Below, one piece after another: positions 25,886 to 31,107 of a stretch of 64,000 nt of DNA. Source of the stretch: Deltaproteobacteria bacterium HGW-Deltaproteobacteria-6 (lineage in GTDB: Bacteria; Desulfobacterota; Syntrophia; Syntrophales; Smithellaceae); assembly GCA_002840435.1 (NCBI GenBank), contig PHAT01000005.1:286460-350459 (forward strand). The letters are read 5' to 3'. Under the pieces are notes generated by a model. That model was not told the origin of the DNA. It did not search any database and worked only from the letters and a program-made list of their open reading frames with translations. Position 1 is the stretch's first letter, and each line of letters begins with the position of its first letter. The position numbers and the translations under genes were made by a program.

Positions 25886-27388
25886 ATGAAGGTTGTGCTC
25901 ATTTCCATGCCTGATGTCGTTCCCATCATCATTCATGAACAGGCAATCCATATGCCGAACCATGGGATTGCCTGCGTCGGTGGTAATATCGATGATCGGC
26001 ATCAGGTTTATCTGATAGATCTCATACGAAAGCGAAATACGATCAGAAAATACCTTACAAACACCCTGACTAAAATCAGACCGGATATTATCGGTCTTTC
26101 CGCCATGACCTGGCAGTATGATACGTGCAACCGGATCATCCGCTTCATTAAGAGCATACTGCCGGATGTCAGGATTGCCCTGGGCGGATACCACGCAACC
26201 TTGATGGCTGAGGAAATTGCCGCCTCGCCTGACGCGGCTCTTATCGACTTTATCGTTCGGGGAGAGGGTGAAGTAACCTTCCGGCGGCTTGTCAATGCCC
26301 TGGATGGACAGGACAACTTTGCATCCATCCCCTCCCTCTCCTTCAAGGAAGACGGTTGTTTCATCCACAACGAACGGGCGACTCTTTGTGATCTTTCCAC
26401 TTTAAAACTGCCAATCCGCGATCATCGCCGGTTGACATGGGGGTACCATTTCATGTTCAAAAATATTGAGATCATGGAAACCTCCCGAGGTTGCACCCGC
26501 AACTGCAACTTCTGCAGCATACAACATATGTACGGCAGGTCCTATCGCACTTATCCCGTCGAACGCGTCATTGACGATCTGGATTATATCTACCGCCGGA
26601 AGAAAACACGGTTGATCTTTGTGGCCGATGACAATCTGGTCTTGAATCCAAAGTGGGTGGACACCGTCTGTGAGGCAATCATCAAAAAAAATTACAAGGG
26701 ACTGAACCTCGTGGTCCAGGCCGATTGCATTTCCATTGCCAGGAACCCGGAGATGGTCAGTAAGATGAGGCGGGCGGGATTCCGGGGAATGTTTCTGGGA
26801 ATTGAGAACGCCTCGGAGGTTAACCTGGAGGAACTATCCAAAGGCAATGTGGCAGCCGTGTCTCAACAGGCAGTTGATATTTGCCATAAAAACGGAATCA
26901 TGGTCGTAGGAGGTTTGATTTTTGGTCTGCCGAATGATGATGAAAGTGCCATTCACAGGAATTACACCTTCCTGAACAACATTGGTGTTGATGCGGCCTA
27001 CTGCCAGATTGTGACTCCATACCCCAAAACCCGTCTCCGTGAACATCTCATCGATGACGGCCTTGTCACCAATCCGGATGATTACCGGAAATACAGTGGA
27101 TTGTGGGCAAACGTCAAAACAAAACACCTCTCCGCGGATCAACTCCAATATCTTTTTTGGTATTATCGCCAAAATGCCCTTGGCTGGTGGACCCCATCAG
27201 CTTTTGCTCGAAGTCAGGGGAAAATATGGACATCCATGTGGCAGCATATCATCAAGCCGATGATGCAGTTCTTCTTTCAGCAAAATGTCCGCAGGACAGG
27301 ATGGAACGGGCTTCACGAAAAAGAGTTGAAGAATCTGAAACAAATGAACACCTTCATGGATCTTCAGGATATTAATGACCGGCAGTGA
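25886..27388 (+). CDS. B12-binding-domain radical SAM protein
   Basis: A 500-residue class B radical SAM protein. Residues 1-135 look like a cobalamin-binding Rossmann domain (IGLSAMTWQYDT, ALGGYHAT) without the DxHxxG motif. The radical SAM core carries Cys203, Cys207 and Cys210 in SRGCTRNCNFCS, then EGEVTF before it and GMFLGIENASE after it. A C-terminal region of about 100 residues is family-specific. Such enzymes (BchE, HpnP/HpnR, B12 methylases) methylate or rearrange unactivated carbons, often in lipids or cofactors. GAGAGGG precedes the ATG. The next gene overlaps its end by four bases on paper only. The substrate is unknown. Confidence 0.87.
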   Translation: MKVVLISMPDVVPIIIHEQAIHMPNHGIACVGGNIDDRHQVYLIDLIRKRNTIRKYLTNTLTKIRPDIIGLSAMTWQYDTCNRIIRFIKSILPDVRIALGGYHATLMAEEIAASPDAALIDFIVRGEGEVTFRRLVNALDGQDNFASIPSLSFKEDGCFIHNERATLCDLSTLKLPIRDHRRLTWGYHFMFKNIEIMETSRGCTRNCNFCSIQHMYGRSYRTYPVERVIDDLDYIYRRKKTRLIFVADDNLVLNPKWVDTVCEAIIKKNYKGLNLVVQADCISIARNPEMVSKMRRAGFRGMFLGIENASEVNLEELSKGNVAAVSQQAVDICHKNGIMVVGGLIFGLPNDDESAIHRNYTFLNNIGVDAAYCQIVTPYPKTRLREHLIDDGLVTNPDDYRKYSGLWANVKTKHLSADQLQYLFWYYRQNALGWWTPSAFARSQGKIWTSMWQHIIKPMMQFFFQQNVRRTGWNGLHEKELKNLKQMNTFMDLQDINDRQ

Positions 27389-27459
27389 TTTCAGGCTGTG
27401 TACCGAAACAAATTTTAAAAAATCAGTGGTCGGCTCAACTTCGGCATTTGTGTTCAGGT

Positions 27460-28290
27460 ATGAACAATAATATTCGGTATGGCAAAATGCTAATACGATT
27501 GGTAATCTCGCTTGTTACTTGTATCTTTCTTATTACTAATTTCTCAGGATGCCAGACAATTTATCGTAATTATATTGATCAAAACATTGATTCTGACGCA
27601 GATGTGGAAAAAGCGCTTGCGACCCGGGGCGAAATTAATGTGATTCTGTTACCGGGGTGTGCAACAAAACCCGGCACGCAGGATACACTTTTCAGTTGCC
27701 TGAAATTGTCACGCGATGTGAATCCGGAATCGGTCAAATTGCCGCCTGATGAAAAACTGTATCTGGGGCATGTCGCTGAATTTATCCTGCGTTCTTTAAA
27801 ATATTATCAGTTGCAGGAAAGCTTCAAGGATTTTTATGGCTATCGCATCATTTTGAAATTCCGTAAATTAACGCCTCAAGAACTTCGATCGAAAAAATTC
27901 AAGGATTATTCAAGTTTTGCTGTAGGCTCGACAAGCATGGTTGCCGGCGCAGCAACCATGACGCCATTGGGCATCATCGTATTTCTGGTGGATGGAATTG
28001 CAATGGAAATTGATCGCCGGGACTTTGAAGATCGCGTTGCAAAGATGCAGCTGCCGGCGCCGAAAAAAAATGTCGTCACCCTGAAACTGGAATCCGGTGA
28101 GCGAACGCTTTTATATGTAAAAGACGAAATATCAGAGGAAATGACCGGAAAGAACAGCATGAGGATTCAATTTGATGAAAAAGTAGCAAGTTACATGGCT
28201 GAAGAGTGCCTTCTGGAAAAAGTCACTCCTGAAGAGATTAATCATTATCAGGAACAAATTAACCTTTTCAGAAAAAACAAAAGGTTATAG
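27460..28290 (+). CDS. hypothetical lipoprotein, 276 residues
   Basis: I do not recognise the family. A lipobox ITNFSGC follows a hydrophobic segment (LIRLVISLVTCIFLI), so the mature protein is lipid-anchored. The middle holds LYLGHVAEFILRSLKYYQLQESF and a second hydrophobic segment TSMVAGAATMTPLGIIVFLVDGI near the centre, which may insert in or lie on the membrane. The C-terminus is charged. The start is uncertain: ATG 27460 or ATG 27487 (the latter giving a normal signal length); neither has a strong ribosome-binding site. It follows the radical SAM gene on the same strand and may share its transcript. Confidence 0.65.
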   Translation: MNNNIRYGKMLIRLVISLVTCIFLITNFSGCQTIYRNYIDQNIDSDADVEKALATRGEINVILLPGCATKPGTQDTLFSCLKLSRDVNPESVKLPPDEKLYLGHVAEFILRSLKYYQLQESFKDFYGYRIILKFRKLTPQELRSKKFKDYSSFAVGSTSMVAGAATMTPLGIIVFLVDGIAMEIDRRDFEDRVAKMQLPAPKKNVVTLKLESGERTLLYVKDEISEEMTGKNSMRIQFDEKVASYMAEECLLEKVTPEEINHYQEQINLFRKNKRL

Positions 28291-28612
28291 GTTGGCTTCT
28301 GTTAACTCAAAGCTATGGAAAAATTGGACCACATTAGTAATTTCAATTCAATTTCACAATGCTATATTATTTTATAACAATCTGAGGACATTATGCTCCG
28401 CCTTATCTGTAATGTCCTTTGCATCATAAAGGCCTTTAGCCTGCATACTCAGATAAATTATTGACATAAAATATCCCAGCGATTTGTTGTTCCAAAACAC
28501 AAAATTCCGTCAATTAATTCATTTATATTACTTTACACACGATCATTTGTATTCTAAAATTGAGCAATTGGATTACACATCTCATTTTCAGTCAGGAAGG
28601 AATACAGTTATT
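28291..28612. other. 322-base spacer with no clear feature
   Basis: AT-rich DNA between the lipoprotein and the ferritin-like gene. An in-frame extension of the latter reaches back to 28484 but lacks a start signal. A TTGACA occurs at 28461-28466 without a good -10. No hairpin is evident. Confidence 0.45.
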
Positions 28613-29095
28613 ATGAACGTTACTGATATTAACAAAATCACAAAAGTTCTCGAATCAATGGCGCAATATGAACTGGCACTGGCTAATTTATATACGAGAT
28701 GTGCTGAAACTTGGAAGGAAGATCAGGTCTTCTGGAAGGGACTGGCCCATGCGGAACAGCGGCACGCTGAAAATATACAAAAGATGCAAGAGATCATTAT
28801 CAGAAAACAGAACAGCTTTGAATTTGGTCGACCCTTTAACATTGTTGCACTGAATACGGCAATGGCCGGAGTAAATGACAATATTAAACGGGTTACGGAA
28901 GGGGCTTTTTCCCGCGAAAAAATGTTTGTTATTGCCAGGGATATCGAACAATCCATGCTGGAATCACGTTATGCTGAAATTGTAAAGACAACCGACATTG
29001 AATATCAAACTCTGATGAAGGATATCCTTTCACAGACGAATGAGCACAAAATGATGATGCAGGAAAAAATCAATGATATAAGAAAAATTTCATAA
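28613..29095 (+). CDS. ferritin-like/rubrerythrin-fold helical protein
   Basis: A 160-residue all-helical protein. MAQYELALANLYTRCAETWKE and FWKGLAHAEQRHAENIQKMQEI look like the first two helices of a ferritin-like bundle, with Glu and His residues in the E...ExxH arrangement that binds two metal ions (Glu in YELA, then AEQRH). A second helix pair follows (MFVIARDIEQSMLESRYAEIV). It may be a diiron protein or a metal-free relative. The start MNVTDINKITK at 28613 follows AGGAAGG. It is convergent with the diiron MBL protein and adenylate cyclase genes, which makes an oxygen- or iron-related theme possible. Confidence 0.65.
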   Translation: MNVTDINKITKVLESMAQYELALANLYTRCAETWKEDQVFWKGLAHAEQRHAENIQKMQEIIIRKQNSFEFGRPFNIVALNTAMAGVNDNIKRVTEGAFSREKMFVIARDIEQSMLESRYAEIVKTTDIEYQTLMKDILSQTNEHKMMMQEKINDIRKIS

Positions 29096-29100
29096 AAAGA

Positions 29101-29925
29101 TTATTTTTTTATAATGCCGTCGATTCCCACTGCTTTAAGTGTCTTCAACCGTTCAATGAGGAAATTTATATCCCTTTTCTTTAAAAAGATGCTTCCATGC
29201 TGAGGAGCAATCATATCAATATCAAGTCTTCCGATGACATTCATGGCATTTTCGAGAGCCTTTTCCGAAGGCATGATTTTCTTATGAAATTCAAGAATAT
29301 CAGGTATGGGACAATATTCTTTCAAATGGATGCAGTGGCTGTAATCCCTGCATGTATAACAGTCGTCTGTAAGGTCAACAGAAAGTTCCCATTGCTTTGA
29401 TAAACTTCCAAAAAGATCGCTGGTGAAAAGAGTTTTTGTCTTTCCATCACGGGTAACGAAGCTGCCGGCATCGTGGGCGTAAGGAGTTTTAAAAAACTCC
29501 AGCATCCTTCCCCCAAAAAGAAAGCCCGCGCTGTAATCATCTATTGACTTCAACATGGATCGTTTGTCCCGCTCGATGTAATAGCTGATAAACATGTTAT
29601 TTTGAGATTCGGAAAGAACTTTCAGTTCAGGGTTTGCACAGATGTCGATCATATTGGACAAAGAACCGCACAAATCGGGATCGATGTGTTGATAAATCAA
29701 AGCCACGATGTTATCGGGAGAAATACCCGTCTGCAGGATCTTCATCATCACAACAGCAAAATCGGGACGGCTTCCTGCATCAATCACAACAGCCTGATTG
29801 CCCTCTTTTATCAGGTATGGATTGCAGTGAAAGTTCGTCGTCGTTTCATGAAATCCGAGCCAGAATATATTATCCGCAATCTCTATCGGCCGGTCATAAC
29901 CTATTTTATGTTTTTTAGGATCCAT
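29101..29925 (-). CDS. MBL-fold diiron protein (ODP type) with a four-Cys insertion
   Basis: A 274-residue metallo-beta-lactamase-fold protein. Its metal set is that of flavodiiron/ODP proteins, not of zinc hydrolases: His80-x-Asp82-x-Asp84, His150, Asp169 and His242 (TPYAHDAGS, FTSDLFGS, APQHGS). Such sites bind O2 or NO. There is no flavodoxin domain, so it is a stand-alone ODP. Between Asp169 and His242 lies a Cys group absent from ordinary members: Cys188-x2-Cys191-x5-Cys197-x6-Cys204, which could hold a cluster or zinc. Its ATG overlaps the stop of the adenylate cyclase gene by one base (TAATG), so the two are co-translated. A gas- or redox-sensing partner of the cyclase is the natural inference. 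Confidence 0.82.
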   Translation of the reverse strand: MDPKKHKIGYDRPIEIADNIFWLGFHETTTNFHCNPYLIKEGNQAVVIDAGSRPDFAVVMMKILQTGISPDNIVALIYQHIDPDLCGSLSNMIDICANPELKVLSESQNNMFISYYIERDKRSMLKSIDDYSAGFLFGGRMLEFFKTPYAHDAGSFVTRDGKTKTLFTSDLFGSLSKQWELSVDLTDDCYTCRDYSHCIHLKEYCPIPDILEFHKKIMPSEKALENAMNVIGRLDIDMIAPQHGSIFLKKRDINFLIERLKTLKAVGIDGIIKK

Positions 29926-30710
29926 TACAACTCCCTCGTTACGAAATATGCCTTCATATTGCCTTTGTTCTTCAGAGTTATCTCTCCTCTTGCTTCAAAT
30001 TCAAAATAATCAATGGTTTTTAAGTACGTTTCCTGAGATATATTTACCCTGCCCTCGACCCCTGATGACTCAAATCTGGAAGCAATATTTACGTTATCCC
30101 CAAAAACATCAAACTGCATGCGTTCCTTTCCGACAACGCCGGCCATTACCCGGCCTGTGTGAATGCCAATACGGATATGAATATTCTGCCCGGTTTGCCT
30201 GTTGAAATCGTAAACGAGTTTTAAAAACGCCATACCTGCTTTTACAGCCATACGAGCATGATCATCATATGCAACAGGTGCTCCGAATACGGCCATATAG
30301 GCATCACCTATGGTTTTTATCTTTGTTCCATTTAAGCTTACCACTAGATTATCCATCCCTTTGAATAGGGTGTCGAGTAACCCTATCAGCACTTCGCCGG
30401 ATATTGTTTCTGCCAGTTTTGTAAATCCCACAATGTCAGAAAACAGGATGGTACAATCATAAGAGCGGGGGGCAAAGCCATCGCTATATTTGATTTCATT
30501 GGCTACCGTTTCAGGAAGGGTATTTTTCAGGAGGTTATCGACTTTTTTTTCCAGAACGACATATTCTCTAATCAATTCCTCCAACAGTCTCTTCTGGATA
30601 TGATCATCCTGAATTATTGCAGTGGCATGGAGATAATCATGGATCAGCCTTGCAGTCAGTCTCTCATCTTTGATGTCCAGGAACACATTTTTTATCGATT
30701 CAAGCTGCAT
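29925..30710 (-). CDS. class III adenylate cyclase
   Basis: A 261-residue soluble cyclase with about 80 residues of helix before the catalytic domain (85-260). Metal-binding Asp92 (ILFSDIVGFT) and Asp136 (KTIGDAYMAVFG), the adenine-selecting Lys132 and Asp201 (QFDVFGD), and the transition-state Asn208 and Arg212 (NVNIASR) are all present, so it should make cAMP rather than cGMP. There is no membrane, PAS or GAF domain; regulation must come through the N-terminal helix or a partner. ATG 30710 is chosen because AAGGTG lies six bases before it. The diiron MBL gene is coupled to its stop codon. Confidence 0.92.
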   Translation of the reverse strand: MQLESIKNVFLDIKDERLTARLIHDYLHATAIIQDDHIQKRLLEELIREYVVLEKKVDNLLKNTLPETVANEIKYSDGFAPRSYDCTILFSDIVGFTKLAETISGEVLIGLLDTLFKGMDNLVVSLNGTKIKTIGDAYMAVFGAPVAYDDHARMAVKAGMAFLKLVYDFNRQTGQNIHIRIGIHTGRVMAGVVGKERMQFDVFGDNVNIASRFESSGVEGRVNISQETYLKTIDYFEFEARGEITLKNKGNMKAYFVTREL

Positions 30711-31009
30711 AAATATCACCTTCGGCAGATATCAACCAGACTTTCGGCGCTTTCAGAAAAGCAGCGACATGTATATACGTTTAAGCACTACATTTAAAAA
30801 CTGTAGTTAATAAGATTGTATGTCAAATACAGAGTTAAGGCAAAAGATTTCTCGCCGATGAATATCAATCATGAAAACATGCTGCATGGTTTTGCTGTTC
30901 AGTTGGGTTCTTCAAATCCAGTATTTGGACGTCGGAATTGGAAGGTTAAAAACGGTAAAATATCAAGTTGAAGAAATTTTTTCGATAAAATCAAATCTAA
31001 CAAATAAAT
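30711..31009. other. 299-base spacer before the cyclase gene
   Basis: It contains a small hairpin ACTACA/TGTAGT near 30786-30808 and AT-rich DNA up to the end of tRNA-Sec. No gene is convincing; the 60-codon plus-strand frame at 30871 has no start signal and crosses the tRNA. Confidence 0.5.
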
Positions 31010-31107
31010 TGGCGGAAGTGCATGGGAATCGAACCCACCTGGGACGGTTCTAGCGCCCCACACTGGATTTGAAGTCCAGGAGGCCCACCAGTGACCTTGG
31101 CACTTAA
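31010..31107 (-). tRNA. selC: tRNA-Sec (anticodon TCA), 5' acceptor end atypical
   Basis: The minus strand reads like bacterial selC: an anticodon arm CTGGA-CTTCAAA-TCCAG with anticodon TCA, a long variable arm (GGGGCG paired to CGTCCC around a loop), a TTCGATT T-loop and an encoded 3' GCCA. The 3' acceptor strand is GCACTTCC, which should face GGAAGTGC, but the 5' strand reads TTAAGTGC, so the first two pairs are mismatched. The gene starts nine bases after the stop of the flagellar rod-like gene, with no promoter between. selA lies at 48.6 kb. It may be a working gene with an error or a damaged copy. Confidence 0.85.

Follow-up and report, generated by a model that had tools for sequence, protein, structure and literature searches.

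Here we describe an overlapping gene pair that likely encodes a two-protein sensor, in which a stand-alone oxygen-binding diiron protein (ODP) with a four-cysteine (Cys4) insertion acts in trans on exchangeable output enzymes through an N-terminal module that these enzymes share. More broadly, we judge it probable that the pair belongs to an undescribed modular family, in which a Cys4 diiron sensor controls at least four unrelated outputs in trans through a common docking module and in which partners have been exchanged. The folds, the iron ligands, the gene pairing, the Cys4 insertion and an N-terminal module common to four output types and exclusive to the four-Cys ODP were established computationally. 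A literature search found, within the collection of papers it covered, none on an ODP paired with a cyclase, phosphatase or kinase, and no biochemistry for any member of the family. The pair lies in a window of 64,000 nucleotides, the whole stretch of DNA analysed, and the relevant features are as follows.

29101..29925, minus strand: four-Cys ODP, a stand-alone protein of the diiron metallo-beta-lactamase fold and putative sensor (274 aa; assigned by PF19583, fold and ligands).
29311..29361, minus strand: C-x2-C-x5-C-x6-C insertion of the ODP, residues 189-205, a putative metal or cluster site (from the alignment).
29925..30710, minus strand: class III adenylate cyclase, the partner output enzyme (261 aa from ATG; PF00211, E=1.3e-54).
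29937..30464, minus strand: cyclase catalytic domain (Pfam match covering residues 83-258 in the 261-aa form).
30516..30710, minus strand: cyclase N-terminal helical-hairpin module, proposed as an ODP docking or signal-input piece (from cross-type profiles and genome specificity).
28613..29095, plus strand: ferritin-like (rubrerythrin-type) protein, a likely accessory gene of cyclase-type loci (full ORF 28484-29095, likely start 28613).

The upstream gene of the pair encodes the cyclase, and its TAA stop overlaps the ODP start codon by one base (TAATG). An earlier note on this DNA had read these as two overlapping genes, a class III adenylate cyclase lacking its own sensor domain and a metallo-beta-lactamase protein with a diiron ligand set and an extra C-x2-C-x5-C-x6-C group, and this description holds in every part: both open reading frames lie at the positions given above, the cyclase has a full catalytic set with PF00211 as its only significant match, and all six iron ligands and four Cys could be located in the ODP. 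Pfam returned no second significant domain, and the cyclase has no known sensor domain. Its catalytic residues (D95, D139, the adenine-type K135/D204, N211 and R215, in a 264-aa numbering) are invariant in 11 sequences. An alternative GTG start is present at 30719, and just upstream of the cyclase lies a selenocysteine tRNA with the anticodon TCA (31014-31106, minus strand). Signalling through cAMP is plausible in this organism because its genome contains 16 matches to cNMP-binding domains and 8 to class III cyclase domains.

The ODP assignment is supported by both sequence and structure. The protein matches PF19583 with E=1.9e-48 and 165.4 bits against a gathering cut-off of 27.2, and its nearest relatives in the PDB are 6qrq and 6qnm, the ODPs of Thermotoga maritima and Treponema denticola; the ODP of these two organisms was reportedly the subject of Muok et al. 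in PNAS in 2019. Its AlphaFold2 model (pLDDT 89.9), when searched with Foldseek, gave top matches that were all ODP structures from the same two organisms (6qwo, 6qrq, 6r9n and 6qnm). The diiron ligands are complete and follow the pattern HxDxD, H, D, H (H80, D82, D84, H151, D170 and H243), which is identical in the classical ODPs compared (L020, L024 and L042). Only ODP and Lactamase_B matches exceeded the Pfam cut-off in the 274-aa protein, with no flavodoxin (FMN) domain.

Fusion of sensor and output in one protein is common in bacteria. Here, an output enzyme adjoins the four-Cys ODP at all 40 readable loci, namely 22 cyclases, 12 SpoIIE/PP2C phosphatases, 5 histidine kinases and 1 GGDEF protein. 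This total comprises 36 partners run against Pfam (18 Guanylate_cyc, 12 SpoIIE, 5 HisKA/HATPase_c and 1 GGDEF) and four further cyclase loci (L051, L054, L122 and L125); excluded are one ODP at a contig edge with an unreadable neighbourhood (L091) and the ODP copies on plasmids pZRK30-1 and pZRK30-2, whose GGDEF partners are disrupted. None of the 36 partners carried a Pfam sensor domain, and no methyl-accepting chemotaxis protein (MCP) was among them. In the first genome searches, every close ODP relative had a cyclase directly upstream, either overlapping or no more than about 70 bases away; over the whole set most pairs overlap or almost touch, the widest gap being 386 bases (L082). The cyclases are upstream of the ODP and the PP2C, histidine kinase and GGDEF partners downstream, so the pairing has been kept across rearrangement. 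For histidine kinase partners, a receiver domain is fused or encoded by the next gene. The earlier note had proposed counting how often a cyclase adjoins an ODP with this Cys pattern, which is 22 of the 40 readable loci, and had made its proposal depend on the neighbourhood recurring elsewhere and on the Cys being conserved in homologues; the pair is kept in other genomes, and 36/36 aligned four-Cys ODPs contain all four Cys. Because many genera preserve both the pair and the four Cys, the gene pair is more than a chance arrangement. As genomic evidence, conserved adjacency and co-occurrence can show functional linkage, not binding.

The same note had also drawn attention to an iron theme in the convergent ferritin-like gene, whose end lies 5 bases from the ODP stop, and this association proved recurrent. 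Homologues are found beside 15 of the 22 cyclase-type loci in three arrangements, upstream, downstream and convergent (for example L081 70-534, L056 2415-2873 and L057 2313-2828), and the flanking sequence retrieved, mostly 1.5 kb, showed none near the PP2C, histidine kinase or GGDEF types. The ligand set E, ExxH, E, H is represented by E20, E48xxH51, E112, E117 and H145, all invariant in 14 homologues. The family assignment rests on these homologues, 5 of 14 of which match Pfam Rubrerythrin, and on their profile, which matches PDB 1vjx (TM1526), and not on the window copy's own match, a weak one to Pfam Ferritin (E 0.03). Elsewhere in the window, 25886-28290 on the plus strand encodes a B12-binding radical SAM protein of 500 aa, whose gene overlaps one for a 301-aa product with a lipoprotein-like look and no Pfam match.

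The Cys4 insertion of the window ODP (C189-x2-C192-x5-C198-x6-C205) is absent from the sister and classical ODPs in the alignment. It raises the possibility, which we regard as real though tentative, that sensing by the four-Cys ODP takes place chiefly at the Cys4 site, in response to redox state or a metal (Zn/Fe), with the diiron site secondary. The universal retention of the four Cys extends to two kinase-paired proteins (L058 and L059) in which most of the iron ligands are gone, and a ferritin-like gene stands beside most cyclase-type loci. Moreover, the spacing between the Cys differs among the 36 proteins (x2; x5/9/10; x2/3/4/6), variation that, in the alignment, is as expected for a putative metal or cluster site; the spacing presumably resembles the Cys patterns of zinc and of auxiliary Fe-S sites alike. 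Against giving the diiron site a secondary role, however, 34/36 four-Cys ODPs retain all six iron ligands, and variation is likewise rare at Cys34 and Cys86, which lie close to the diiron site; in most members, then, selection acts on that site. The two exceptions are instructive in both directions. Since L058 and L059 keep the four Cys without most iron ligands, the role of the Cys4 site is separable from that of the diiron site, and the signal of these two proteins cannot be ordinary diiron chemistry; since they lost Cys34 and Cys86 together with the ligands, these two residues appear tied to the diiron site. Four-Cys ODPs that have lost most iron ligands and kept Cys4 are encoded at L062 3812-5776 and L063 3984-5829, together with a histidine kinase and a receiver, between two PilT/PilB-like ATPase genes.

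The feature that ties the different partners together is their N-terminus. The first 55-65 residues could be aligned across all partner types (cyclase, PP2C, histidine kinase and GGDEF), with an Asp at the turn followed by the pattern Q/N-x-x-LL-x-x-L-x-x-x-Y. In the cyclase model, the module is predicted to form helices at residues 19-36 and 39-64 (264-aa numbering) that lead into the catalytic domain, the confidence in this block being moderate (pLDDT about 56-77). A sequence search of the PDB and a Pfam search found no relatives of the module. A profile built from cyclases only gave ten PP2C/GGDEF partners and the best histidine kinase 20-30 bits, with a maximum of 30.5 bits on PP2C/GGDEF; the remaining histidine kinase and PP2C partners scored lower, and the best of 3562 scored shuffles reached 10.1 bits. 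Reciprocally, a profile trained on PP2C and histidine kinase partners gave 18.9-36.8 bits on the N-termini of all 20 cyclases and of the GGDEF protein, with shuffles at or below 11.0. Five partners, the PP2C proteins of L093 and L095 and the kinases of L096, L062 and L063, were outscored by the best shuffle when the cyclase-only model was used; their modules were accepted on the joint alignment, and the case is weakest for these five.

Genome-wide searches with a module profile gave a consistent picture. In 12 carrier genomes and 8 controls, each four-Cys ODP was matched by a single module, and no further copies occurred. Among 155 genomes of the window's own class, 12 of 13 matches lay beside an ODP and the other was cut by a contig end. 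Among 291 genomes of another class, the 16 genomes with a module were all ODP genomes, and in the only ODP genome without a module match the ODP was at a contig edge. Since these same pairs had served to train the profile, most of these matches are not independent and only the absence of extra matches counts as independent evidence.

Cyclase and kinase linkers are commonly helical, short and continuous with the catalytic domain. The shared N-terminus could accordingly be a convergent, generic coiled-coil linker or dimerisation helix, with the ODP acting elsewhere or not at all, and the module is indeed short, helical and runs into the catalytic domain. We consider this improbable: no other protein matched in the 20 chosen, 155 own-class and 291 other-class genomes, every readable module match adjoins a four-Cys ODP, and the best non-partner among 381 real ORFs scored 4.3 bits versus 11-30 for most non-cyclase partners. 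The shuffles, the reciprocal leave-type-out profiles and the genome searches thus all disfavour a generic linker.

In a maximum-likelihood tree, the four-Cys ODPs form one clade with support of 100/100. A branch with support of 98/93 separates those paired with cyclases from the rest, among which those paired with PP2C and kinases are interleaved, which indicates that partners have been exchanged. Over the whole tree, partner type or group changes five times, versus a shuffled mean of 22. The carriers are mostly Desulfobacterota-type genomes. Four-Cys ODPs were found in 12/395 sampled genomes of the window's phylum, in 17/291 genomes of another class of that phylum and in 1/148 genomes of a second phylum, entered through a Nitrospirae locus; none was found in 299 genomes of the Acetobacterium phylum, where the matches were without the insertion. 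Within the window's own genus the system is patchy, because among the sampled genomes only this one and one other (G008) carry it. A search of a plasmid collection found close ODP relatives only on the Fusobacteria ZRK30 plasmids, other matches being distant. These plasmids, pZRK30-1, pZRK30-3 and pZRK30-2 of one strain (L007, L008 and L009, respectively), each have a four-Cys ODP gene with a GGDEF gene downstream. The GGDEF copy is intact only on pZRK30-3; of the other two, one is frameshifted and one is split by a stop.

Taken as a two-protein sensor, the pair could work as follows. The four-Cys ODP would hold two irons in its beta-lactamase fold and would sense O2, or alternatively peroxide, NO or Fe status, by gaining or losing a diiron adduct. 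The Cys4 insertion would hold a metal, either Zn or iron in an Fe-S or rubredoxin-like site, which may shape a contact surface or add a second redox input. The N-terminal helical hairpin of the sensor-less cyclase, predicted to be continuous with the catalytic domain, would be the route by which the ODP acts on this enzyme in trans, and the ligand state of the ODP would set the cAMP output, to be read by cNMP-binding proteins. Within this scheme we infer four elements: physical docking, signal identity, regulatory direction and the Cys4 metal. That the ODP is instead an enzyme scavenging O2, NO or peroxide, co-expressed with a signalling enzyme that it does not directly regulate, is the least likely reading: its superfamily includes the flavodiiron O2/NO reductases, and the adjacent rubrerythrin-like gene belongs to a class of O2/peroxide detoxification proteins, but the ODP has no flavodoxin or rubredoxin domain, two members kept the pairing despite losing most diiron ligands, and co-expression alone leaves unexplained why sensor-less partners of unrelated catalytic folds carry an exclusive module.

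The two-protein sensor also revises the earlier suggestion of a gas- or redox-to-cAMP sensor. The coupling of a stand-alone ODP to a sensor-less cyclase is strongly supported by genome context and the docking-like module, but the tie to cAMP was too narrow, as SpoIIE, histidine kinase and GGDEF partners occur elsewhere. If this reading is correct, four outputs, acting by second messengers or phosphorylation, would be driven by one soluble diiron sensor through an exchangeable docking piece, so that a single non-heme input (O2, NO or redox) would be shared by the cAMP, c-di-GMP, partner-switching and two-component pathways. For engineered sensors, the docking module and the Cys4 site would also be specific and potentially transferable parts.

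Several known systems share parts of this design. The flavodiiron proteins (ROO, FprA and flavorubredoxin) have the diiron beta-lactamase fold in common with the window ODP, which, in contrast, lacks both their flavodoxin/FMN domain and an electron-transfer module. With class III adenylate cyclases that carry a fused sensor, the window cyclase shares its catalytic domain and residues; here, in contrast, a second, co-translated gene encodes the proposed sensor, and the hairpin has no Pfam match. The closest relatives of the four-Cys clade are sister ODPs (L075-L079 and L100) and ODP-adaptor-GGDEF-REC fusions (L018, L019 and L080). Both conserve Cys34 and Cys86 as the four-Cys clade does, and the fusions also carry a signalling output, but they lack the Cys4 insertion and are associated with an adaptor-like protein of about 92 aa in place of the N-terminal hairpin module. 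In the sister loci this conserved protein adjoins the ODP and weakly matches the middle of the fusions L019 and L080; it is possibly a second, separate adaptor system.

The nearest functional parallel is the ODP of T. denticola, which is genetically coupled to an MCP homologue without sensing and transmembrane modules (PMC7666581). The window ODP has the fold and diiron ligand set of the T. denticola and T. maritima proteins, and the Treponema ODP is likewise stand-alone and coupled to a sensor-less signalling protein. In contrast, the classical ODPs compared lack the four-Cys insertion and the conserved Cys34 and Cys86, and the Treponema-type partner is a chemoreceptor, whereas the partners of four-Cys ODPs are cyclases, phosphatases, kinases and GGDEF proteins with a common N-terminal module. 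By this comparison, the Treponema ODP-MCP pair is the direct precedent for an in-trans logic that a distinct ODP subfamily would here extend to four other outputs.
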